From assembly GCA_001692895.1 (NCBI GenBank), contig KV748196.1:2294001-2358000 (forward strand): DNA of 64,000 nt, read 5' to 3'. This DNA is from Cenococcum geophilum 1.58. Taxonomy: Eukaryota > Ascomycota > Dothideomycetes > Gloniales > Gloniaceae. Positions 2,469 to 63,942 of this stretch are shown piece after piece (position 1 is the stretch's first letter; each line of letters opens with the position of its first letter). The position numbers were made by a program, and so were the translations under genes. A model generated the notes under the pieces. That model saw only the letters and a list, made by a program, of their open reading frames with translations, was not told the DNA's origin and searched no databases.

Positions 2469-3299
2469 GATGTTACCCTATATCCACGGTTGATTTTTAA
2501 TTGCCAGCAACGCCGCGCTCTTAGCACCCGTTAAGCGCTATACGTAGAGTCTACTAAGCGCTTTCTACTTATACTAAAATGGTAAGAATCGGCTATAGGT
2601 TAATAGAGTTATTCACGTTTTAAGTTGCGCGCCGCCATTATATAAGCATCCTAAAGTACCCTATTAAACTTATACCGCACTAAAATAAGCCCCTAGGGGG
2701 CTATAGATAAAGGCTTTAATAGAATATCTTAGTATTTTATTAGAAGTTAGATATAGATAATATATATAACTTTTTTAAAGCTTTTTACCCGCTTAAAGCC
2801 GTTTATAAAGCTAATCTAGTAAGTACTACATCCGTTTCTATTGTAGATTAACCTACTATATAGCCGCTTTCTTGCTAACCTTCTAGGCCTATATAACCCG
2901 CTTAATTTCCTTAATAACCTTAAGCTATAGGGAGTACTATTAAACCTTTTTTTACTAGCTAGCCTACTACTTACTACCCTATTTAAAATCTAGCGCTACT
3001 ATAAAAGAATTACCTTTTAGCTTCTTAGTTTACTTATACTAAAAAGCCTATGTAGAGTTTATCGCGCGGCTTATATAATATATAAGTAGAGACCTAAACC
3101 TAGGCTTTAGCTACGGCTATAGCTATAGCGGTAATAGCGGTAGTAGTAATAGTAAAGCTATATAAAAAGGAGGGCCTATAGTGCTTATTTAGGTAGATAT
3201 ATATCTACTAGATTATATAGTAGATAGAGCTAAAGGGGCTGCTTCTATAGACGGATATAGGGGGTTAATAGACTAGCCCTAAGGCTATACCACCACCAT

Positions 3300-3333
<34 letters not shown>

Positions 3334-3462
3334 GTAGCTAAAGGGGCTTCTAGTTAAAATATAAGGCCTTTAAACGCTAGTAATTAAAGCTATAAAGACT
3401 AGGCCCGCTAGGTATAACGGACTTATATAAATGCCTTTAAGACGAAGCTTGTAGATTGCTAC
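2469..3462. other. AT-rich decayed repeat DNA, unassigned
   Basis: This is roughly 1 kb between the Tc1-type element and the split MITE. It is TA-rich with stops in all frames and contains a trinucleotide microsatellite (3291-3333). I found no terminal repeats or protein motif that identify the source element. Confidence 0.5.
3291..3333 (+). repeat. (ACT)n microsatellite
   Basis: An imperfect CAC/ATC start leads into eleven consecutive ACT units (3301-3333), within RIP-decayed DNA. Confidence 0.95.
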
Positions 3463-3669
3463 TACAGTAAAAACTGGTTAGTACAATATCTGATTACAAC
3501 GATATACTCTATATTACGATCTACACCTCTTAATTAAAGTGTTTTTGGTATAATATTACGATATTCTAACTTTTAATGATATCGTTAAGTCTCCCCTACT
3601 AAAATCGGTATAACTAGTAGAGATTTTATATGGGAGGGAGCCTAATTTAGCCGGTAAGGTAGACGCCTT

Positions 3670-4090
3670 TGTTACAAACGCTTTAAGTACAATGTTACGA
3701 CTACTTGGAGAAGAGTCGGAAGAAGCTAGTTAGTTAATACGGGTACGGTCCAGTATGGAACCGGTAGAACCATATGACGAGGAATGGTAAGCGAGTTATA
3801 TAATATTATACGCAGTGTACAAAGTATATAAAGGGAACGTACGTATAACATGTATAACATGTATATTACGTATAAGAAGGATTTTATAGGAGTATAGTTG
3901 TGTATTTAAGGACCCTTAGTCCCTACCTAGATAGTTCCTTTCTTGTAGTAATTCTTAGAATATAATTAGAGTTAATCTATTAGGCAACTACTCTACTAGT
4001 TATTATTACGTTGTTAACTTACTTGCAATACCTATATACCTAGCCCATTAATAGAACCTACCGTAGTTCCTACTACAAGGTTCCGTTATA
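3670..4090 (+). repeat. 5' LTR of the chromovirus
   Basis: 421 bp, direct repeat of 11211-12085 (with the insertion removed). It differs from the 3' copy mainly by C/T and G/A transitions, consistent with RIP acting after insertion. Confidence 0.92.
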
Positions 4091-4132
4091 TAATTACTAC
4101 CACAGTTACGGTTTCAATAAGTTAAATAACAT

Positions 4133-7100
4133 GCCACCAAAAGCAGCCACTATAATGCTATCGACGGCAGCAACTACCTTAAGATTAGGAAACGATACTA
4201 GTATAGCAGATACTAACTTATAGCAATTAGTAACGGTTAGACAGTTACAAGAGATAGTTAACTAGTTAACGGAAAATAATGCGGTACTTAAAAATAGGAT
4301 TAACGGGATAGGTGTAGTAAAGGTTAAGTTACTATTAATTAAAAGATTCTTAGGAGAGAGATTAAAGCTTAAAGGATTCCTTATATAAATGCACTTTAAG
4401 GTTACGCAAGAGGGAGCAAAGCTGGCGACACCTATGGATTAAATAGCGTACGTAGGATTGTTCTTATTAGAAAGAGTACTTAAATAGTTTAAGCCTTACC
4501 TTATAGAGATACAAGCAAACGGGATAACAACTATAAACTAAGAGGTATGGTTTATGTTTTTAAGCTAGAACGGATTTATAGAACGACTTATATAAATATT
4601 TGGAGACCTAGAGGCGACGACCACAGCGGAAAGAAAACTCTAAGACATTACGCAGCGAACCTTAGTAATTAAGTATATAACGTAGTTCCAAATACTAGTA
4701 ATATAGGTTAAGTGGAATAATAAGGCGCTTATAGTACAGTACAAACAGGGACTTAAGGCTAAAGTCCAGGACGTAATTATTCTAATAGAAGATGCGGACA
4801 CCCTAAGGGAATTAATTAATTAAGCGATTAAGATTAATAACAGGATCTTCTAAAGGGAATAGACTAAAAGAGGTTAGGACAGAGTTCTATAGTTATATAG
4901 GACGTAAAGTACGCAACAACTAAAGCCAAGTTAAAAACTATAGTATAGCGTAGAGCTAATAGACCTAAGCGGTACTAAAAAAAACCATAAGAGATGGAAT
5001 AAGAAACTATGGAAACTTAGAGGTTAAGGATTAAGTAATTATAGGACTAAGAAGTATAGGCTAAACTAGGGATCTTAATAGCAGAAGACGTTTAGGTAAA
5101 CTCTATAACAAAGTTAATGGTTTAAAGACGGAGCTTATATAAATTGCGGAAAATAAGGTTATTTTATTAGGGATTGCAAAGATAGTTAGAGTTACTATAT
5201 AATAAAAGGAACTAGACTAGTAGACAACACACATATATAGAGGGATAATAGTATACTATAAGGAACAAAAGAATGTTTAATCTAAAGTTTCGCGTTTTAT
5301 TATAATAACGCATGCCGAATTTATAAAAACGCTAAGTACGGCGTAAGCTATTAGCCATAAGAGCCAGAGTTAAGAGGACTTAAAGGAACCAAAGAGTTAG
5401 ATAAAGAAAAAGATTAACTCTATAAGCTAGATTAAGATATTATAGTAATATACGGACAATAATTAGTAACAATAACAATAAAATTAGAGTACTTATTAAT
5501 TAATAGCGCCAAGGAAGATAAAGGAACTAACTAGGGGTATCCAAACCTTAAAGACGCAACAAAGGTAGAGACTGAGACCGCCATAGAGCAAGGTTTAGTA
5601 ACGGGTATTATAACACCATTAGATACGGCATCCATCGCTTTATAAGATAGAAGGAGTAATATCTAGAGATAATTAAGCAAGCAGACGACTGCTAGTGCTA
5701 GCTTACCACTTAATAAAGGCAAAAGGCCAAAGGCTTAAGATTCTTAAGACGAGATAAGGCAAGCTTAAGGACCTATAATAGACGATAACCAATAGAGCAG
5801 AGCAACGGCTTAGTTTAGTAATATATAAATAAGCTCAGGACGAAGTTTCCTAAAGGCATAAAACTCTTAAGATAAGATAAGTAAGATTTAAGACTCTTAA
5901 GATAAGATAAGAACACCCAAGCCTAGTTAGACTAAGGCTAGAGCGCAGCTTAAGAAAGAAGCGAGCTTAGGATTAAAGAATCTAAGGGACTAAGAATTCG
6001 GAGTATAAATAAGGATACCCATAAGTAAGAAGCAAAAAGCTTCGCTATAAATTAGGGAATCTATAGTATAAACAGCAGTTAAATTAGAAGACAGATATAT
6101 AGACCTAAAGGACTTACTAGTTAAATAAGGTGTTTAGACTAAAGATCGAAAGTTTAATACTAAGGTTAAGAAGTAAGATAACTTTAAGGATTTACTTATA
6201 AGGCGAAAAGTAAAAGAAACCATAATAGAATTTAGGGCAAGAATAGAAACTAGATATAAGATCTAGCACACTAGGCTATATAAGGGACAGAGCACCTATA
6301 TAAAGAATCACTAATAGGCCGAGAACAGGCACACTAAGAGCTAAGTAGCTTACCGAACTAGAAAATAAAGAGGATCTAGGGATTCTAACTAGGTTTAAAG
6401 AACGACATATAAAGGGCTGTTATAACGCAGTAATAAGAAGATACTTCCTTACGGATAAGCCGTATATACTCTAGCAGCTATACTAAAAGTGGTATAGGTA
6501 AAGGCACAATAATAAGTAGGAAGATTTCTATATATAGTTGGACGAAAGAGTTATCTAAGACCACCTAATTACGGAAAAAGCAATAAATTATATTAAGGGA
6601 GCCTTAATTATAACGTTAAAAGATTTAAAGGAATAATTAGAGGACTAGAGGAGTAAAAGACGCGTTTTAGTACCTATAAACGAAGTCATAATGTTTAGAT
6701 TAACACGGTAAAGGTTTAAACTTAAGAATAAAAATAAGTTAAGAGTTAACCTAAAGCACCTAGCACACTATACGCTATTATGGATTGTATGCGTAAATAA
6801 TATATGTAAAATATATAGGAATCCGAAGGAAAAGAATCGGAAATACCCTATAAGAATATATTAGGCGCTAGATAAGCGATAGTATAGGAATGCTAAGTAT
6901 ATACACAGCTGGTATCTAGTAAAAATTTAGAAGTTAGGAGACTTAATACTTTAACCAGGAAGATTCCTTACGGAAGAATGCCTAGATAGACGATAATAGT
7001 GGAAATATTTAGAGAACACCTATCTATGGCATATTAAAAAAAAGAAACAAACTAAGTATTAGCTAAAAGTAGACTAAGTATAAATAGGATCTAGTAGCTA

Positions 7101-26767: not shown

Positions 26768-29700
26768 ATGGTGACGGAAGAAATCGTAACCTGCGAAAAG
26801 TGTGAGGAGCTACCGGGAGTTGTCATGTGCTCCTGTGATGCTAGGTTCTGTGAGGGGTGCTTTACGACAAAGCATCTCCCTCACCATCCGAAGCACAGAC
26901 CCGGGGGCACAAGCAAAACAGATAAGGCTTGGGCCTGGATTTCCGGCACTGTCGCAACCTTGACTGACAGTACCTCGAAAGTAACGCATTTCGAGCAAGA
27001 CCAAGTGACGAAATGGTTCAAAGTTGGGGCAGATCGTGTGACAAGACTCGTGGAGACATTCCGGTTCTCGCGCCTGGTTGAGGATTCGATGCATCATAAC
27101 AAAAACAGCCCTCGGCGACAGTTTCCTAGCATCGTGTCGTTTGTCGGGGAAACTGGTGCTGGGAAGTCCACCTTGAGTATGTAGATCCTCTTCAAAACCA
27201 TCACGCAAGCTTAAGAAGATAAGCTTGTTCCTGATACCGTTACAGTCCGTTCCTTGATTTCCAGCGCTAACAGGTCGGACTCGCATTGAGAACTTGGAGG
27301 CACCAGTGCCAGGAGCCCGATCCGGCTCATCTGTCTGCCTGCCCACTACCGGTGAAGTCAATCTCTACCTTGACTCCGGCACTTTCGGTACCGAAGTCCC
27401 ACACTTCTTCGCGGACTGCGAAGGTATGCTTGGTGGCGAGCCTGCCGCTGCACAACATCAGAAAGACTGGTCCAAGGACGGCAGGAAATACCTTCTGGAG
27501 TCTAAGGATGGAAAGCAAATTGACCGTAAAACTGCCGTCATGACCATCTATCCTCGCTTCCTCTACATCTTCAGCGATGTCATCAGCATGATCACTAGGA
27601 ACCAAAAGGCCTGGGCTGATTCGGCGGTGAAGTTGCTTGAGTGGAGTCTGGTCGGCGCACACAATACAGTCAACCATTGTGCCCTGCCAGCACTGATCAT
27701 CGTTCTCAACGGCCCTACTATTGAAAACGAAGCCTGGATCTCTGACGACCATCATGTTGCCACGAGAGATTTCTTCACGGCAATCGAGAAGGAGATCAGC
27801 GAGAATACCACTCTGAGGGAAATGGCAAAGAAGGTGACAACCGTCGCTTCCATTTTGCATTGTATCATGTCTAACGAGATGGACTAGCACGGTGACGAAA
27901 ACATGAAAGATCTATTGCCGCGGAACTTTTCTAGCGTTTATGTGCATTATATCCCTTTGGATGGCTTCCAGAGCCTCGGTAATTCCGGTGTCATCATTCC
28001 ACAAACTAGTCGACTTGCCCAGCGAATCCGAAAAGATGCCAAACGCGTTCAGACCAAGCGCGCCGAGACATGGACTCTGCTTGACGCGAAACAACTAAGC
28101 ATTGTATTCGACTACGCGTTCAAGCATCTCGCATCAGGCAGCGACGAGCCCTTCGACTTCAGTCAATGTCGACAGCAGATATCGCCCCCAGCGTCAGCAG
28201 AGGGTCACTTCGCTGAATTTCTGGGCCGATGTATGCATGGTAGCGTGGACGATAATTTTGAAGCCGCTGCATCAATTGTGGGGCCGTGTATTGTCAGAAA
28301 TTCACTCAAGTTAGAGGGATCGGGTTAGTCGACAACACTCTTAATAACAAGCTACTTTATATGATTGAATAATCCCTTCTAATGTGCCGCCGGTTAGATT
28401 TACTCCATCCTTCCGTTGTTTTCAACAAGGAACTCAAAGAGACATGCCGTCGAGCCTTGGATCAGTTTCTTAGTAACAGTCAGCCATGCGCGTATATTCA
28501 CCCAGAAACTGGCGAGAAATGCGTCAACACCAAGACTGGGCATGCTAAGGGCCATCAAGTAGCAGGAGGCTCTTTCCTAGCGGAGGGGAACTTCGTGGAC
28601 GGAGCCTTTGATAGTAGCAGATTCCTGGAATTGATTGACAGCACCGTCTTTAATACCCTCAAGGCGATCAACGAGCATGTAGACTCGAACAGAGAGGAAA
28701 GACGCCAATATGCTGCTAGATTACATAGATCTCATCTCAAATTCATACCGGACCAGTCGTTCTGGACGGAGTCATTTACTGCTTGGTGGATCGTCCTATT
28801 CAAGAAGCGGTTTGGACACATATCCGGCGCCAGTCTTACGATCAGGCTAGTGTGTGCTACGCATGTCTTTTCGGTCGTCCGGAGTATACTCTGCCTTGTG
28901 GTCATGTCATTTGCTTCGACTGCCTTCGTGAGTTCGACCAGTCCTTCTCCTCGGAAATGTATCCCGGCGTTGCCATTCACAAGGAATGCGTGCTTTGTTC
29001 ATCAAGGGACGAGAGGGAGGATATGTGGCCATACAGGGTTGAGTATCGTCCAGATCTGAGTGGCATCCGCGTGCTCTCTCTGGATGGTGACGGTGTGAAG
29101 GGAATCATTCAGCTATCTATCCTTCAACGGCTTGAACAGCTCGTTGGCCTTGACATGCCATTCGGCGAGTTTTTTGATCTCATGGTAGGGACCAGCGCTG
29201 GCAAGTAAAATTCAATCCTTTCCGGGGTTTTCATTGCTTAGAATTATATAGGTGGATTGATCGCGCTTAGCCTTGGTATCCACAATCTCAGCGTTGAACA
29301 CTGCATTGTGCGGTTCAAATCCTTCTGCAAGAAGGGCTTCGAAGATAGGCTTCTGACTAAAAGCTACTGGTTCGGATGGTTTGTGAGACTATTCGTTAAT
29401 TCGATCTACAAGACAGAACCTCTAGAAGAGGCTATGAAGGAGATCTTAAGAGTAAAGCGCTTGTTTGGGTATCGTAGCAATGCCTCACGAGTTGCAGTAA
29501 CTACTACTGTGGATTCCAACTGCCATTTGCTCGCCAACTACAATTGGGGAGATGGAAAGCGATACCTCAACTCAAACATTGACACTTGGCACGCGTAGGT
29601 GGTTTCTCCTTATCCACCGTTTTCAACTTCGGTGCAAGCAGCTGACGTTCAGATTTTTATGCAGCGCACGTTGTACCTCCGCTGCTCCAATGTATTTTGA

Positions 29701-30573
29701 GCCAGCTTGGCATGACGGCAGCGCGTGCAGGGACGGAGGGCTGAGGGAAAACAACCCAGTACAAATCGTGGTAAACGAGGCCAGAACTATCTGGGGCTCC
29801 GATGTAGTCTCCGACGTGATCCTCTCCGTTGGCTGCGGACAAGCACAGAATCCCCAGCGCCGACCAATATCGACATTCATTCTTCCCGGTTGGTTGACGG
29901 ATCTGTTCACGACGCTGATTGAGACTATGAACGGCGATGCTGCTTGGAAGAAGTTCCAGGAGAGCGTTAGCCAGCCAATGCTGGATCGATGCAATCGACT
30001 GAATGTCCGCTTTCCAGGAGAAACCGAGCCAGAACTTGATGATGTCAATGCAGTGGACGGGATGGAAAGATTGGCAAAATTCTCGACCTTCCACTACCAG
30101 ATCCCTAAAGGAGGTTTTACGCCTGTTTTCGGCCAGGCCAGTGACGACTCACTAGAAGTACTAGCCGATAGTCTCAAGGCGTCACTTTACTTCTTCGAAC
30201 TCAAGTCTATAACCCAACAGGACGATGTATCAATCATCAAAGGTTGGATCTGCTGCCGTCTTCCATCTGACAGAAAATCCTATAAGCCGCTTATTGAGGA
30301 GACTTCGTGCTTCCAAGTCAAGGGTAAGAAATATGCGGTGCCTACTATCCAGGGAGGGGAGCGGCTCAAGATGGACTTGTCTTTCCAGCAACAGGACTCG
30401 CGAGATTCTGTTCCGATCAGGATTGATGTCAAGTTTCACCAGGAATATTTCGTTACCATCAGTGGATTTCCTATGACATTACGAGTGAGTTTACGGACTA
30501 ATTGCTACGCCTATTATTTGCTAACGTAAACAATCAACAGATGTTGAAGGCACACTGGAATAGTTTGCGGTAG
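26768..30573 (+). CDS. Zinc finger - GTPase - RING - patatin-like phospholipase protein
   Basis: Exons 26768-27176, 27265-27833, 27888-28323, 28398-28678, 28729-29200, 29252-29594, 29665-30484 and 30541-30573 join to 1120 residues. Domains in order: B-box-like zinc finger (CEKCEEL…CSCDARFCEGC); P-loop GETGAGKST (about 127-135) with DCEG (about 187) like the G3 motif of GBP/AIG1-type GTPases; a CCHH cluster (CAYIHPETGEKC then H-x3-H); RING-HC (CYACLF…CGHVICFDCL, about 608); patatin with GTSAG nucleophile Ser (about 721) and catalytic Asp in DGGLRENNP (about 860). Patatins hydrolyse membrane lipids. The oxyanion motif reads DGDGVKG instead of DGGGxRG. The intron at 29201 is GC-AG (GCAAGT) and splits GTSAG. 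The 50-bp intron at 28679-28728 is uncertain: the alternative is a one-base frameshift near 28777. Family architecture suggests an immune-like sensor; that is inference. Confidence 0.82.
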
Positions 30574-37252: not shown

Positions 37253-38260
37253 ATGCGCCGCAAGTCCCTGCTTATCGGCATCAGTGTGCTCACCCCCGCC
37301 CCCTCTTTGTCCTTCAGCTGATGGCTTATGCGTAGAGCAGATTACACCGGCTCCTCCCATGAACTTCAAGGCTGCCACCAAGATGTGCACAATGTGCTCT
37401 CCTTCTTGGCTGAAAAGGACTACCCTACCGACTCGCGATCCATGGTAGTGTTGGCCGACGACCGCGACCGCAGAGGCCCGTTCTTCCCCACTGCCCGCAA
37501 CATCCTCGCCGCCATGGATTGGCTTGTTAGCGAGCCCAACNCATGCTGTTTTCTGCACTACAGCGGGCACGGCGGGCAAGTGCGGGATCTGGACGGTGAT
37601 CGAGACTCGGGCTTTGACGACACCATCGTGCCGGTAGATTACGAGACAAACGGGCAGATCGATAGCGATACCCTGCACCGCCATCTAGTCAGCGCATTGC
37701 CGCCAAGCAGCACACTCTTCGTTGTGTTTGACTGCTGCCACTCTGGTTCAGCTATCGAGTTACCCTTCGTGTATCGCACCGACGAGAACGGGGACGTTAA
37801 TTTGATTGATAATGTCAAGCAGGGCATCCACCTCATGTCTGCCGCTTCACATCTCCTCCAAGGAGGCTTTACTTATGACAAGGTTAGCGATGCGCGTGAG
37901 CTGCTCGCCGGCGCGCAGAGCTTCTTCAAAAGCCTAAAGCACATGAGCGACCCCGTCGATGAGGACGGGCTCGGCGAGGAGCACTTTGCGGAGGACTGGA
38001 AGGCCGAGAAAAAGCACGTGTTCATGTATAGTGGATGCAGAGATGATCAGACAAGTGCTGATGCAACCATTACTGGGAGCCATGTAGGTGCGATGTCGTG
38101 GGCCTTTTTACAGGCCATGAGGTACGGAGATGGCGGTATGGGGCAGAGCTATGTCCAGGTGCTGCAGAATACTAGAGGCTTGCTGAAGAACAAGTACCAG
38201 CAGGTTCCACAGTTGAGCGTGGGTATACATACGAACCTAAATCAGCCTCTGAGACTATGA
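37253..38260 (+). CDS. Metacaspase (peptidase C14), short or incomplete N terminus
   Basis: Exon 1 (37253-37283, MRRKSLLIGI) is joined by a 54-bp intron (GTGTGC…GTAGAG) to exon 2 (37338-38260), giving about 317 residues. The p20-like domain has HYSGHGGQVRDLDGD with catalytic His, the next strand DDTIVPVDYE and FDCCHSGSA with catalytic Cys. The p10-like part ends MSWAFLQAMRYGDG…QVPQLSVG. Metacaspases are Ca2+-dependent Arg/Lys-specific cysteine proteases linked to protein quality control and cell death. The usual Gln/Tyr/Pro-rich prodomain is not seen; in-frame sequence upstream of the ATG (ENFVFVYKHPT) hints that the protein starts further 5'. One ambiguous base at 37541 makes a single residue unknown between the first strand and the catalytic His. 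Confidence 0.85.
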
Positions 38261-57930: not shown

Positions 57931-59774
57931 CTAACTCATCCAGGCCCTGGGATCCACCTTCTGGATAACCTGCTTCTGAAACTCGCTCTCGAATTCCCGT
58001 CCCACGTATTGGTCCCATTTGCCGTCAAGGCATGAAATGACGGCCTCCTTATATGCATTGCCCATGCGATGCGGCAGCCGCGATTCCGCATCCTGCAGGA
58101 ATGCTTTTTTGATCGTTTGGGCGGGCAGCCCGCCAGTCGGCCGGTCCCCATCCAGATTGCACTCGATGATGTCGTCATGTATCTCCTTTGCAGTCTGCCA
58201 GAGCCCAATCTCTAGGAGGACAACCCCCAGAGAATAGATGTCGTGGATTCGCCGGAAGTTCGCATTCGGTTTGAGGCCGTACCGCTCAGGGTGCAAGTAC
58301 ACGTCTCTCTCGACATCCACGGCGCGGGCGGCCAGGCGGGTTTTGCCGCCCTCAGGTCGCGAAAACTCAAAGTCGGTCAAATACGGATTGCTAAAGTTAC
58401 ACCTCTGGCCATCTACGCTGAAGAAGAACTTTATCGCGTGCGAGCGTATGCTTTTATGTACCCAGCCGTCCGAGTGGAACGCCCCGATTGCCCTAGACAC
58501 CGTCTGGGCGACGTGGAAGCGGTACTTTAAATCGAGCTTGAATGGCCCATCGCTCGCGAGGATGCAGTCGTAGAGACTCTGCGGCTCACGGGAGCCAGCA
58601 TTTGGGGGATAGTCAAAGAGAAACGCAAACTGGACCTGATCGGCGTCCCAAGAGTACCCATTCAGGCGAAGGGTGCGGAAGTTGTGCTCCCCTGCCGTCC
58701 TCAGGAGCCTGGCCAGTTGGGGTGCATACTGCTCCCGGTTTGGCTCGCTTATGATTCCGGCCTCTGCGTCCTCTTCGTCTCGTTTGATAGCCTCTCCAAG
58801 CTGCTTATACTCTACCAGCACTCTAGGTTGTGATATCTTCTCTTGGGCTGCGCTCCACGGTAAGGGTTTGTCTAAGTCCGGTTAGTTCTGCCCCAAGCTA
58901 TGAATTTGAGGCCGTCCGTCACCTTCAGAACTCTCCACATCCTTAATATCATTTTCCTCCTCCTCTTCGGTTAGCATCTTTAATTCGAGGTGGCCTTTGA
59001 ACATGTTCTCGTCTCCGTCAGATTTCAGTCTCTCTTGAAGAGACTTATTGTCGTAGAAACCGAAGCCGACCAGTAGCGAACCAACCAGATGCTCCAGGTC
59101 ATCATTCCATACCTGGAATCTTCTTAGTGTCTCTTCTAGGTCACCCTTCGTAAGTAGCCACTGAAGTCCTGGAGGTAGTTTCATCTCCGGCTTCGATGAG
59201 GACTTCTTCGGCTTGGAGCTCCCCGAACTGCGACCGAAAGAGAACCAACTTTTCCGCTTCGCTTCCGCTGGGGTACCATTATGCTTTCTATCTGCGTCGC
59301 CTGTATCCGGCTGTGCCTCTTCGGATGGTGCGACGTCGTCTATTAGAAGGACGTCCTTGGAAGGATCGAACCTGAACTGGGGGCTGGCCGGCGAATACTT
59401 CCGATACTCCTCATCCAAATTCGCTGCGAACGTGGTATAGGCGGCCAGCACCACCTGGAGCTCCCGTAGGACGTCGTGGACGGTCTGGAGATATTGCTAG
59501 GTCCCTTTAGTATGATTTCATAAGAGGACTCCATTAGACGCACATCCGGCACGGTTTCAAGGAACTTCAGGTCCACAATATTTCCATTAACGCCACAAAA
59601 TATGCGGGAGAAGTTCTTCAGTCTCAGGATCTGGACGTTCAAGTGCGTCACCACGCTCGCCTGTTCGGTGCGATAATTTTTGATGGAACGCGCAGAGTCC
59701 CTGATGAACTTTGTCGTGAGATATGCATCCTTGAACGTCCCCACAACGGCGAGAGAGAGGCTGATAGGTTCCAT
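57931..59774 (-). CDS. HeLo-domain protein with C-terminal pseudokinase
   Basis: Exons 59774-59544, 59496-58923 and 58871-57931 join to 1746 nt (581 residues); introns are GTGCGT…CCTAG and GTGACG…CTTAG. The N terminus MEPISLSLAVVGTFKDAYLT and the helices after it (about 1-220, including YLQTVHDVLRELQVVLAAYT) fit the fungal HeLo/prion-inhibition domain, a helical bundle that kills cells by membrane insertion in HET-S. A Lys/Ser-rich linker (WFSFGRSSGSSKPKKSSSK) interrupts it. The C-terminal 300 residues follow a kinase plan: WVHKSIRSHAIKF in place of HRDxxxxN (about 405, catalytic Asp missing), LTDFEFSRPEGG in place of DFG (about 434), then DIYSLGVVLLEIGLW. No glycine loop. So it should bind rather than phosphorylate. 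Head to head with the kinase gene at 60318. Confidence 0.87.
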
Positions 59775-60317
59775 CTTCGATTTGCGGGAGAGGGCTGAAA
59801 GGTGTCAGGAAAGGACCGTAGCCTCCGCATCTTTATGCACCTCGCTCTCAGCCGAGTCGCCTTCGCATTCCCTCGGGAAATGGACGCGGCTGGCATCATT
59901 GCCTCATTTTGTTTCCATTGCTGATGGGATGCAGCAAAATCGTGTGGTTCGGGCAGGGAGGCGTCTGAGAAGACGGCTGGACCCTGAGTTAGCGGCATGG
60001 CGCTCCATTTAACGACTGGAGCTGCCGCCAGCTGCGTCGCCGCCGTCAGCCACAATGTATCTCAGCACCATGAATGGCTGTCTCGACAGAGGGCATGCCG
60101 CGACCGATGGACCCTTTTTGCACGCAGCGTTGTTCAGCTGAAGTTGAGAATGGGCCCTCAGCCTTGTTTGGCATCGTCCGGATGCCTCACTCTTTTTTCC
60201 CCGTTTTGCTTGACTCTGGTATATTTTCTTCAGTTTACCCTTGGAACGGCGGCGAATAGTCGACCACCATTGGCTCTTTCGGGAATCGAGTTCGTTATCT
60301 ATCGCTGCATTGAGGTA
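59775..60317. promoter_or_regulatory. Shared divergent promoter of the HeLo-pseudokinase and kinase genes
   Basis: 543 bp separate the two ATGs. The kinase frame stays open upstream to 59997, so the kinase could start earlier, but that extension is Cys-rich, not family-like, and overlaps the promoter. No specific operator was identified. Confidence 0.5.
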
Positions 60318-63300
60318 ATGTCGCCCTCCACCCCTACGTGGTTAAACCGCAAGCGCCCAGGCACGAAGGCGCGAACGCGCGCGAGGGGAAAACTGCAATT
60401 GTCGATATCGCCAACACCTTCAAGATCCTCTTCCGTGTCAGCGAGCGCGCAGCTGTCTCGAAGTCGCCGTGAAACCGGCGGTAATCACATCGCCGTCCTC
60501 AATCGATTACTCAGAACCTTGGAGACGAATCAGGTGCCCGGACCACAGTTCTTCCGACTTGAACAGGAATTTTCGAAACCCCTCGGAGAAGGAGGCCAGG
60601 GTAACGTTCGGGGGATCAACGAAAAGTCCGCAAAGCTTTACAGGAAAGCCGACAAAAACTACCTTAAGCACTGGCCAGTGAACCTCATTGCAATTAAACA
60701 ATACCAGGCGAAACAAGTCAACCACCAGCCGCAGGATGCCAACTCTCAGGCCCAAGAGGTCGAACGCAGTGAACATGACCTTGCAAATCGTTTTCGAGCA
60801 GCCGAATGCGAAGTCTTGGCGCTCTCCCCGAATCTCTTTCGGAATAACCCCAATATAGTCCAGCTCATGGGTTGGGGCCTGTGCCTAGACACGCTTGAAT
60901 CACACGACAGTCCATGCTGTCGCTATCTCCAAACTCCTATCCTCGTCCTTGAAAGAGCGGAATGGAATCTCCTGGAATTTCTGCGCCGTCTATTCCCCAC
61001 CCGGGAATACGCCCCCGATATTCAAGTTGAACGAGGTATTTCGGCCTGCCGACCGCACAAAATCGGCGTATCGATTCCAGCCTCGGCATTTAGATCAACT
61101 GGAAGCTTTCTGTCACAGTTCATCGGACTGACACAAGACCCGTATGAGGTCGTACGACTCCTGTGCATCGATATCGGACATGGCCTGGGTAGCCTGCACG
61201 AGAATGGCTTCACACATGGTGATCTTAAGCCGCAAAACGTGCTTATCTTTAGACACCATGTTAATGGGTTCCGCGCAAAATTGTGTGACTTTGGGTGCGC
61301 ATATGGCAAAGTTGAAGAAGAGCCCCCTGCAAACGAGACTCCCCTAGAGATTCGGGAGGAGAAGGAGTCTTACTACGGAACCGAAGAGTGGCTGCCACCG
61401 AGAGCTGAAGCCGACGACAAGCACGACTTTGAAGGTCTCCGGAAGTGTGACCTCTTCGTCTACGGCTTAGTGGTTTGGTGCAGCTTCTTCCGGCGAGGGG
61501 AGCCGCCGCCGAAGGACCCGGGGCTGCTGGATGCTAAGGCTGATATCGACGATTTTTTGGGGGGGAGGAGGTGGATGTCCCGAAGTAAACGTCGCCTTGC
61601 CGATCGAGTTAGGGCCGTACTCGAGCAAACTCTGAAGCCGTACCCAGATTCAAGGGATTACAGACCGTGGGAGTACTTGGAGTCCTCGGCTAAAGAAGTC
61701 GATGAGGCGAGAAAAGCTGCTCAGCGCACGCAATCGTCACCGGATAACGGGCTTGCGAGCAATGCTCCGTTGACACTCTGCCCAGCATCTATCGCATTGG
61801 AGCAACAAGGGCAGACACCAGCCGGTGAGCTTACAACCTACGAACCGTTGCCGCTCGCCGTAAGGGCTAGGTACAAAGAGAGGTCTTGGTGGCTACGTGA
61901 TACAGCTATAGTTCCCCTTACACCAGTCACCGCCACTGACGACCACACGATATCCGCGGACGATAACACCAAGGCGCCACTTGTCGTTGTCGCACCAGTT
62001 GACGCCGAGCACTCCGATTCCGGCCAGGACTCTCTAGATACTCCGCTCATCGTCGTCGACTCAGATAGCGAAAACCACACAGATTCGACTCCATTGCCGC
62101 CAAAAGCGCCAGTAATCGTAGTAGAAACGACCGAAGAAGAGGGTTTTGGCCCCGCATCAGCGGTTCCTTTGACATATGATGACAATTATCGCAGTATGAA
62201 ATTATTCCGTTCCGAAAGACGCCAGAAGGATACACAAGAGCTTTTCCGGCTGATGAAGGATGCCATAGAGTCTTGGGAAGGGAAGTTGAGCAATAGGGAG
62301 GATCTTTATTGCTACGCACGCTTCAGGAGTCGGGTGCGGCTAAAGTGGTGGACCAAGGGGGATATGGGCGTCAACCTGCTCGCGAGGGCGCTCATATTGG
62401 ACCCACCAGTCGACATAAGGACTCTTGCATGGCTCTGCAATGGGCCCATTGGAAAATCAGACGTACTGGGTTTGTCGAATTCCAGCCTTACTTGGGAGTT
62501 CATAAGCGATCCCAAGTTCCTCAACGAGTCAGAATGTCTCGACCGGTTCCTACTCCTTCTCCAGTTCGGGGCGCGTGTTGAACAAAAGCTAAGTTTTAGC
62601 ACGAGCGGGCCGGGCTCGTCCATCTTCAGTATGTATCTTAGGCACTGTCGTCCTGCCATCGTTCCCACAGTCATGGCAGAAATCTGTCGAAGGCTTGATG
62701 AGGTCATGGACGACGAGCACATGGCCGAGACCACCAGAAATTACATGACCTCACCTGGCCCACGCGGTTCCGAGGCAACGGCAATCACAGACCTCAAGTT
62801 GGCCGGCAATAAAGCGGCCGTCACCGTGCTACAGCGACACATTCTCCTCAGTCGGAAGACATCCCAGACGGACAACCCCCAATCCGCCCCAAGCGAAACC
62901 ACGTCGCTATTAGGAAACCTGCCCCCGGGATGGGAGCATCTTGGAAAGTCGTGCAGGGTGACCGGCCCCGCCCTCTACGAGGAAGACTTCACCAACTCCA
63001 TCACGCTCCACCGGCCCAAGATCGGCCTGATGCGCCTGCGCGAGATCGAAATCGGCTTCCTCGACCTGGGCCAGGTGTCCCACCTGGACCTCGACTCGTA
63101 CCTGCAGCCGGGAGCCGGGACAATGAGCCGAAAGAACTTCGCGTCAGACCTGACCTCGCGCTTCCCGTCGTACAACGAGGACTGGTTTGAGACGGAGTGG
63201 ACGACGGAGCACGCGCGCGCCGACATCCTCGGCGCCATTCGCGAGCCCTGGCGCCTCCCATCCTTCTCCGTCCGCGTGCCCGTCCCCGAGCTCGACGTCG

Positions 63301-63656
63301 GGGAGTGGCTCGTCTGGGCCGCCGGCATCATCCTGCGCGGCATTGTCGTCGCCGTCGTCGTAGCGGCCGCCCTCGCACTCATCGCTGCCCTCTTCCCGAT
63401 CACGTTGGTGCTGCTGATTCTCGGGGTCGTCTTCACGGCGCTGGTCGCCTGCGCCCCGGAGAACGGCTACTGCCAGTTCATGTCGGTGGTGGTAGCCAAG
63501 GTCGCCGCGCTGTGTCTCTTCGTCGTGATCGTCGAGTGGTCGTGTCCTGGAGCGGCGCCATCGTTCGGGGATGATGGGAAGTTGCATTGGCCGCATGGTG
63601 GGGAGAATTGCAAGACGTGTTGGTGGATTCTTTGGACGTGGTGGAGTTGTAAGTAA
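60318..63656 (+). CDS. Protein kinase with C-terminal membrane segments
   Basis: Intronless, 1112 residues from the ATG at 60318. Kinase motifs are present: GEGGQGNV (about 90), AIK lysine (about 126), a ~60-residue insert before the catalytic loop, HGDLKPQNVL with Asp and Asn (about 300), CDFG (about 324), YGTEEWLPPR (APE region) and DLFVYGLVVW. The Arg of HRD is Gly, so it may not need activation-loop phosphorylation. A long acidic Ser/Thr/Pro linker (about 440-630) contains two LIVVDSD-like repeats (APLVVVAPVDAE, TPLIVVDSDSE, APVIVVETTEEE). A ~350-residue C-terminal part of unknown fold ends with hydrophobic spans (GIVVAVVVAAALALIAALFP, VLLILGVVFTALVA and VAKVAALCLFVVIVEW) and a Cys/Trp-rich tail. 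Divergent partner of the HeLo pseudokinase. Confidence 0.85.
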   Translation: MSPSTPTWLNRKRPGTKARTRARGKLQLSISPTPSRSSSVSASAQLSRSRRETGGNHIAVLNRLLRTLETNQVPGPQFFRLEQEFSKPLGEGGQGNVRGINEKSAKLYRKADKNYLKHWPVNLIAIKQYQAKQVNHQPQDANSQAQEVERSEHDLANRFRAAECEVLALSPNLFRNNPNIVQLMGWGLCLDTLESHDSPCCRYLQTPILVLERAEWNLLEFLRRLFPTREYAPDIQVERGISACRPHKIGVSIPASAFRSTGSFLSQFIGLTQDPYEVVRLLCIDIGHGLGSLHENGFTHGDLKPQNVLIFRHHVNGFRAKLCDFGCAYGKVEEEPPANETPLEIREEKESYYGTEEWLPPRAEADDKHDFEGLRKCDLFVYGLVVWCSFFRRGEPPPKDPGLLDAKADIDDFLGGRRWMSRSKRRLADRVRAVLEQTLKPYPDSRDYRPWEYLESSAKEVDEARKAAQRTQSSPDNGLASNAPLTLCPASIALEQQGQTPAGELTTYEPLPLAVRARYKERSWWLRDTAIVPLTPVTATDDHTISADDNTKAPLVVVAPVDAEHSDSGQDSLDTPLIVVDSDSENHTDSTPLPPKAPVIVVETTEEEGFGPASAVPLTYDDNYRSMKLFRSERRQKDTQELFRLMKDAIESWEGKLSNREDLYCYARFRSRVRLKWWTKGDMGVNLLARALILDPPVDIRTLAWLCNGPIGKSDVLGLSNSSLTWEFISDPKFLNESECLDRFLLLLQFGARVEQKLSFSTSGPGSSIFSMYLRHCRPAIVPTVMAEICRRLDEVMDDEHMAETTRNYMTSPGPRGSEATAITDLKLAGNKAAVTVLQRHILLSRKTSQTDNPQSAPSETTSLLGNLPPGWEHLGKSCRVTGPALYEEDFTNSITLHRPKIGLMRLREIEIGFLDLGQVSHLDLDSYLQPGAGTMSRKNFASDLTSRFPSYNEDWFETEWTTEHARADILGAIREPWRLPSFSVRVPVPELDVGEWLVWAAGIILRGIVVAVVVAAALALIAALFPITLVLLILGVVFTALVACAPENGYCQFMSVVVAKVAALCLFVVIVEWSCPGAAPSFGDDGKLHWPHGGENCKTCWWILWTWWSCK

Positions 63657-63684
63657 GTAGGGGTATGGTTCGAGGGTGGGATGG

Positions 63685-63942
63685 GAAGAGGTGGTCAAGG
63701 CAGTAGCAGGAACTAGCGACAAAGTGATGAGGCTTCTATTTGATCGAAGAGAGGCGGATGCCCCTATTACAGAAGGGGTGATCAAGGCAGCGTCGGGGAA
63801 TAGGGAGAGTGGAAGGGAAGTAGTGATGCTTCTGCTCGATCGAGGAGGGGCCGATGTTTTGATTACAGAAGAGGTGGTCAAGGCAGCGGCGGGCAACGAG
63901 CTGAGCGGCCACCAGCTGGTGTCACTATTTCCCGAGCACTAA
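63685..63942 (+). pseudogene. Fragment with ~31-residue tandem repeats
   Basis: In a frame different from the kinase gene, three repeats can be aligned: EEVVKAVAGTSDKVMRLL, EGVIKAASGNRESGREVVML and EEVVKAAAGNELSGHQLVSL, with LLxDRxxADxxIT linkers. Repeats of this EVVKAAAGN/SG.E(I/V)M.LLLD type occur in multiples in fungal NLR-like and ankyrin-rich proteins and may be degenerate ankyrin units. The frame has a TAG upstream and TAA at 63940. It may be a relic, or an exon whose joining to the kinase gene I could not find. Confidence 0.5.

Follow-up and report, generated by a model that had tools for sequence, protein, structure and literature searches.

At the end of a contig of the fungus Cenococcum geophilum 1.58, two genes stand head to head, one for a HeLo-like protein with a degenerate kinase domain and the other for a kinase that appears intact, which raises the question whether they are chance neighbours or the two halves of a system comparable to the necroptosis proteins RIPK3 and MLKL, as an initial annotation made from the letters alone had proposed. 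The pair occupies one end of the stretch of DNA analysed here, referred to below as the window (64,000 nucleotides of contig KV748196.1; C21:2294001-2358000 in the contig labels used here; genome 177 Mb in 162 contigs). The HeLo domains of fungi are known to be related to MLKL of animals, and the fungal route described so far runs from NOD-like receptors (NLRs) to amyloid. We found that genes of the two families represented in the window are paired within this genome far beyond chance among paralogues, a conclusion that is well supported, and the sequences suggest that fungi have a counterpart of the switch by which RIPK3 and MLKL make animal cells kill themselves.

The genome was searched with four paralogues as queries: the HeLo-pseudokinases of C44 and C28, the kinase of C61a and, for a second type of kinase, the partner kinase of C28. 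The C44 query gave 28 matches, corresponding to 22 pseudokinase loci after exons were merged and the HeLo-only locus C25 was set aside; the C28 query recovered 20 of these 22 loci (missing C3b and C19) and one extra place on C8, and a search of the genome for DUF7580 returned 33 places. In an alignment of 10 family members including the window protein, PF14479 (HeLo) and PF24476 (DUF7580) each matched nine at E<=0.1, the exception in both cases being the window protein. Among 60 of 459 matches listed, the family profile retrieved the HET-s HeLo structure 2wvo (E 4.6e-16, positions 9-186), and its C-terminal part retrieved IRAK4 (2.4e-11) and then MLKL (4m68, 2.7e-9). The aspartate of the HRD motif is absent in 14 of the 15 pseudokinases inspected, C3b retaining HKD. 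Every one of the 13 kinases inspected retains the catalytic-loop aspartate (12 by pattern and C3, with QGD, by eye), and three of the kinases, those of C10, C17 and C4, carry DFA or DFS in place of DFG.

The kinase family was defined as the best 14 loci of the 38 matches to the C61a query (E<=1.5e-10; next match 4.9e-8). A pseudokinase locus lies no more than 6 kb from nine of these 14, where 0.024 would be expected (binomial P 3e-22 if the loci are independent), and eight of 13 kinase-family loci remain linked at this distance when the window pair is left out. The expectation that the pair would be kept elsewhere therefore holds for the paralogues of one genome, which is as far as these eight loci reach. 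Six of their eight pseudokinase partners have a Pfam HeLo match at the N-terminus, that of C32b is not recognised as HeLo and that of C17 is caspase-like, so that a kinase family always found without a HeLo partner, which had been named as an outcome that would count against the proposal, is not what this genome contains.

Such clustering might also arise without any functional link, if two large, fast-evolving fungal families simply gather in the same gene-poor, repeat-rich regions. The setting of the window pair agrees with this explanation, given that C21 ends about 1.4 kb beyond the window in sequence that, by eye, looks AT-rich and seems to hold ankyrin remnants. The control kinases speak against it. 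Among 131 Pfam Pkinase matches, the best-scoring among the matches listed and none of them overlapping the 14 family loci, the distance to a pseudokinase locus is at most 6 kb for only one and at most 20 kb for five. That single match, at C28, is itself a kinase of the second type (HKDIKPEN-like query), for which six of 71 places lie within 6 kb, at five pseudokinase loci (C28, C2, C66, C5 and C4b; expected 0.12). When hand-picked kinase lists and all 71 places of the second type are counted together, a kinase lies no farther than 6 kb away, or apparently forms part of the same gene, at 14 of the 22 pseudokinase loci.

The relationship of the partners was assessed with FastTree, using the domains of 13 kinases of the window's type and of 15 pseudokinases and leaving out the second kinase type. 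Kinases and pseudokinases were split with a support of 1.000, indicating that the pairs are not local duplications, since the window-type kinases and the pseudokinases separate in the tree; the duplication of one kinase gene into a kinase and a pseudokinase at each locus is ruled out by this split. In all eight pairs tested, the score of the kinase with other kinases exceeded that with its neighbour, and in six of the eight some other pseudokinase outscored the neighbour. Partner distances are correlated over the nine pairs (r 0.53, permutation P 0.003), and linkage has persisted through divergence to about 20-40% identity and through changes of orientation. The pairs may go back to a single ancestral pair, in which case the loci are not independent.

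Five of the nine pairs are head to head (C61a, C61b, C7, C32b and the window), three are in tandem (C44, C3 and C17) and one is convergent (C10); because orientation differs among them, linkage has outlived rearrangement. We also read the sequence downstream of the kinase at 12 paralogous loci that carry a kinase of the window's type, C16 being left out. Same-strand ankyrin repeats over the Pfam cut-off follow the kinase at eight of the 12 (C61a, C32b, C3, C10, C7, C17, C94 and C61b), the downstream ankyrin matches at C44 are weak and under the cut-off, and no ankyrin repeats were found after the kinase at C60, C4 and C92. Kinase and ankyrin repeats share one reading frame only at C61b, and their joining into one gene at the other repeat-bearing loci is presumed.

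These arrangements bear on the possibility that the kinase is not a trigger and instead restrains or guards the executioner in the manner of an antidote, such that loss or inhibition of the kinase would free the HeLo protein. Linkage and fusions would be expected equally under an antidote, and the head-to-head orientation of five of the nine pairs fits balanced expression. However, the repeat arrays after several kinases are typical of sensors and fit an activator better, and eight of the 22 pseudokinase loci have no neighbouring kinase, a dangerous condition if the antidote is encoded alongside. We therefore regard an antidote role as quite unlikely.

At two loci the kinase and the pseudokinase appear to form one gene. 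On C5 (L047:1205-3571, minus strand), a single open frame encodes a kinase (PF00069, 3.6e-20) followed by a pseudokinase (PF24476, 3.1e-8), and this frame adjoins a kinase–tetratricopeptide repeat (TPR) locus. At C4b (L049:972-3049, plus strand), a kinase frame with the motif HHDIKPDN (PF00069, 8.7e-19) overlaps the same-strand pseudokinase frame IGWLHKGISSHN, whose PF24476 match (0.0015) is under the cut-off. Both would be natural kinase–pseudokinase fusions. These two apparent fusions and the correlated divergence of the partners argue further against a mere co-gathering of two families, which we consider highly improbable.

A different substitution is apparent on C17 (L044, plus strand, in the frame upstream of and including 2691-4526), where a stretch with YYGGHG and LLDCCH precedes the pseudokinase and a kinase–ankyrin locus lies upstream. 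We take the GHG and DCCH motifs to be caspase-like. Stops separate the caspase-like stretch from the pseudokinase piece, and the locus appears to represent an effector swap, with a caspase-like part in place of HeLo. The view that every linked pseudokinase has a HeLo N-terminus can be rejected: C17 carries caspase-like motifs, and the profile does not recognise HeLo at C32b and C4b.

How does the window pair itself compare with these paralogues? The head-to-head arrangement described in the initial annotation is real and its coordinates are right, with 543 bp between the start codons (59775..60317) if the ATG at 60318 is used; further in-frame ATGs of the kinase frame lie upstream at 59997 and 60150. 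The HeLo-like–pseudokinase gene (57931..59774, minus strand) runs from a start codon at 59774 to a stop ending at 57931 and encodes 581 amino acids in three exons (59774-59544, 59496-58923 and 58871-57931), an in-frame model against which relatives were aligned. Intron 1 (59497..59543, minus strand, 47 nucleotides) reads GTGCGT..ACTAAAGGGACCTAG and intron 2 (58872..58922, minus strand, 51 nucleotides) reads GTGACG..ACTAACCGGACTTAG; the two contain the branch-like motifs ACTAAA and ACTAAC and end in TAG acceptors, both of their donors are weak, and the three-exon model is predicted from sequence. Such very short introns, together with the gene content of the window, are in our judgement those of a filamentous ascomycete. 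The kinase gene (60318..63656, plus strand) is a single exon encoding 1112 amino acids, within a reading frame of 1222 codons without a stop, for which the chance is about 3e-21 at local base composition.

The claim that the minus-strand gene joins a HeLo-type domain to a dead kinase was firm in its second part and less so in its first. In the pseudokinase domain, encoded by exon 3 (57931..58871, minus strand), WVHKSIRSHA stands for HRDLKPxN and DFEF for DFG, so that the HRD aspartate and the catalytic-loop lysine and asparagine are all replaced; the domain matches the IRAK4 kinase (E ~0.001), its Pfam Pkinase match (E 0.0074) is under the cut-off, and PF24476 (DUF7580) gave no match. For the proposed helical domain (59077..59774, minus strand, approximately residues 1-217, a span that takes in intron 1), a profile was made from 14 HeLo N-termini found in this genome, and it scored 15.5 bits against the first 300 residues and 13.4 bits against the whole protein, aligning residues 30-217, the best of 500 shuffles reaching 3.7 bits. 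We lean towards a divergent HeLo-like N-terminus, assigned with reservation from this one sensitive profile.

The divergence of this domain leaves room for a complex that signals at a membrane for purposes other than death, in which the HeLo-like domain would serve for oligomerisation or as a membrane anchor. Two features of the window protein would suit this role: it has no Pfam HeLo match and lacks the hydrophobic N-terminal span seen in five of the 15 sequences scanned, not all of which include the true start. In fungi, death is linked to HeLo domains as well as to caspase-like ones, and the caspase-like stretch that occupies the HeLo position at C17 argues against a role outside death. So does the HeLo domain of HET-S, an experimentally shown membrane-targeting death domain according to passages of a 2025 review (PMC12881547). 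A non-death complex is in our view unlikely, if still worth keeping in mind.

The neighbour was correctly described as a kinase with intact motifs. Its kinase domain (60570..61560, plus strand, delimited approximately by eye) contains LGEGGQGNV, AIK, HGDLKPQN (residues 300-307) and CDFG (D324), and matches Pfam Pkinase PF00069 with 46.9 bits over residues 279-412 (cut-off 31.7), as an active-type Ser/Thr kinase would. Among PDB matches, PBK/TOPK (7.4e-7) stands above RIPK1 (8.9e-6). The domain is followed by a tail of about 700 residues, for which no Pfam match was found and for which the genome yielded no paralogue, 10 of 10 non-self matches being confined to the kinase domain; no NACHT or NB-ARC match was found in the window kinase with Pfam. 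The tail contains two hydrophobic, putative transmembrane spans (63339..63533, plus strand; residues 1008-1026 and 1054-1072 in a Kyte-Doolittle scan). The designation as a membrane kinase is thus consistent with this copy and does not extend to the family, as such spans were seen only in the window copy among the loci read. Beyond the kinase stop, DUF7104 ankyrin-like repeats (63676..63939, plus strand; PF23397, E 3.2e-28) begin after 20 bp in a frame other than that of the kinase. They are followed, towards the end of C21, by apparently frame-broken ankyrin remnants, recognised by eye; inspection of the contig end by eye showed no telomere repeat.

On balance, and by a slender preference, we take the window pair to be a divergent example of a recurrent module of two genes, an active kinase and an effector-pseudokinase, with RIPK3/MLKL-like logic, kinase-triggered HeLo killing included. 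One gene would encode the executioner, a HeLo-type helical domain restrained by the dead kinase fused to it, and the other a catalytically intact kinase with a variable sensor part. At several paralogous loci this part would consist of ankyrin or TPR repeats, and in the window kinase of a unique two-span region. When the sensor meets its trigger, possibly non-self, a parasite or an incompatible partner, the kinase would engage, and probably phosphorylate, the pseudokinase of its neighbour; the HeLo domain would then be released to permeabilise the membrane and kill the cell, as RIPK3 acts on MLKL. The two genes and their motifs, the recurrent linkage, the two apparent fusions and the one apparent effector swap were computed here. 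From these we infer contact between the partners, phosphorylation, the direction of control, membrane attack, death and the trigger, as well as the kinase–repeat join into one gene at most paralogous loci.

Several observations weigh against this proposal. As regards linkage, the cut at 14 loci was set post hoc at a gap in E-values, and the count becomes nine of 37 within 6 kb if all typed places are included; the statistics assume independent loci, and pairs may have duplicated together. Partners within 6 kb are lacking for eight of 22 pseudokinase loci (C9, C32a, C3b, C4a, C60, C11, C19 and C94) and for five of 14 kinase-family loci (C60, C92, C94, C4 and C16), four of the 22 pseudokinase loci rest on weak matches (C4b, C11, C19 and C94; E 1.6e-5 to 1.5e-4), and all support comes from the sequences of a single genome. 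Among the paralogues, the linked locus C61b is broken, with its HeLo part on one strand, most of its pseudokinase on the other, and a split kinase frame. The stretch between kinase and pseudokinase on C5 is barely HeLo-like (6.6 bits vs 5.0 for the best of 200 shuffles), a HeLo profile signal is absent between the kinase and pseudokinase of C4b and at the N-terminus of C32b, and no Pfam caspase domain was found in the 612-residue frame of C17. In the window protein, PF14479 gave no match at E<=1, a nine-member profile of HeLo-pseudokinase N-termini barely exceeded the shuffles (7.7 bits for the first 300 residues and 5.5 for the whole protein; best shuffle 6.2), and a simple scan (19 residues, >=1.6) detected no hydrophobic N-terminal span.

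The analogy with RIPK3 and MLKL appears apt in its logic. In both cases an active kinase accompanies an executioner domain that is joined to a pseudokinase. The MLKL pseudokinase is among the matches of the family profile, and RIPK1 is one of several matches of the window kinase. Unlike RIPK3 and MLKL, the fungal genes are adjacent or apparently fused and their kinases go with ankyrin, TPR or membrane parts; the fungal executioner N-terminus matches HET-s HeLo best, and IRAK4 ranks above MLKL for the pseudokinase. A sensor gene beside a HeLo executioner gene is likewise the arrangement of the NLR–HeLo clusters nwd2/het-S and pnt1/hellp, which signal by amyloid templating from the NLR to an amyloid tail according to passages of PMC7885112 and PMC12881547. 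In contrast, the executioner tail here is a pseudokinase, and the sensor in the window, a kinase, has no NACHT or NB match. No amyloid-like motif shared by the kinase N-terminus and its cognate partner was found, the scores lying below the shuffle maxima in eight of eight pairs, in what is a weak test. On C65 (L010), a HeLo gene on the minus strand diverges from a NACHT gene (PF05729, 4.1e-14) that also gave a weak HET-S N-terminal match (PF17108, 0.0072), a pair that resembles the nwd2/het-S arrangement. Fungal gasdermin–protease clusters also combine an executioner with an enzyme-bearing sensor and ANK, TPR or WD40 repeats (as portrayed in passages of PMC12881547), whereas here a kinase stands for the protease and a HeLo-pseudokinase for gasdermin.

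HELL and HeLo proteins with a kinase or pseudokinase domain have already been noted in the legend to Fig. 6 of the same 2025 review (PMC12881547); their executioner architecture is that found here, where PF14479 and PF24476 co-occur. An adjacent active kinase partner and fusions are not described for HeLo-pseudokinases in those parts of the open-access literature covered by our search, outside which most subscription papers fall, and no comparable pair is described in passages of PMC10197012, PMC9815663, PMC12258605, PMC7885112, PMC9262711, PMC5485727, PMC4835503, PMC5148876 and PMC8778642. Such passages report MLKL-family homologues with Sel1 repeats in Glomeromycotina (PMC8778642) and, at het-v, a HeLo/MLKL-domain protein beside a methyltransferase (PMC9262711). 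The term DUF7580 was not found in the open-access literature searched.

A few other loci were recorded in passing. On C25 (L012:367-2163, minus strand), a HeLo domain (PF14479, 4.3e-43) shares an open frame with a ubiquitin-conjugating E2 domain (PF00179, 4.4e-38). On C24 (C24:70964-71977 and C24:62002-63054), a kinase with 86% identity to the C28 partner kinase has a DUF7580 place about 8 kb away, possibly a pair that was copied recently. About 20 kb from the head-to-head genes, the window encodes a metacaspase-like caspase-domain protein (37322-38257, plus strand; PF00656, E 4.9e-31), in a frame that holds one ambiguous base, and at 29501-30526 (plus strand) a patatin-like phospholipase fragment (E 7e-6, just under the cut-off).

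More tentatively, we propose that these loci may represent a modular death relay of fungi, distinct from the NLR-amyloid and protease-gasdermin systems, in which sensors are swapped on an active kinase, a common pseudokinase serves as docking switch, and HeLo and caspase-like effectors are exchanged, with the window pair as a specialised membrane-based copy. If true, the control of a four-helix executioner by a kinase acting on a pseudokinase, the core of necroptosis, works in fungi without NLRs, and the recurrent kinase beside HeLo-pseudokinase genes would supply the MLKL-like kinase step, which has no fungal counterpart in the literature covered here. Such a module would open the origin of necroptosis to experiment in tractable fungi and would hint at what DUF7580 does. 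A further prediction is a new class of loci for allorecognition or defence against parasites, which could be mapped by a simple neighbour search.

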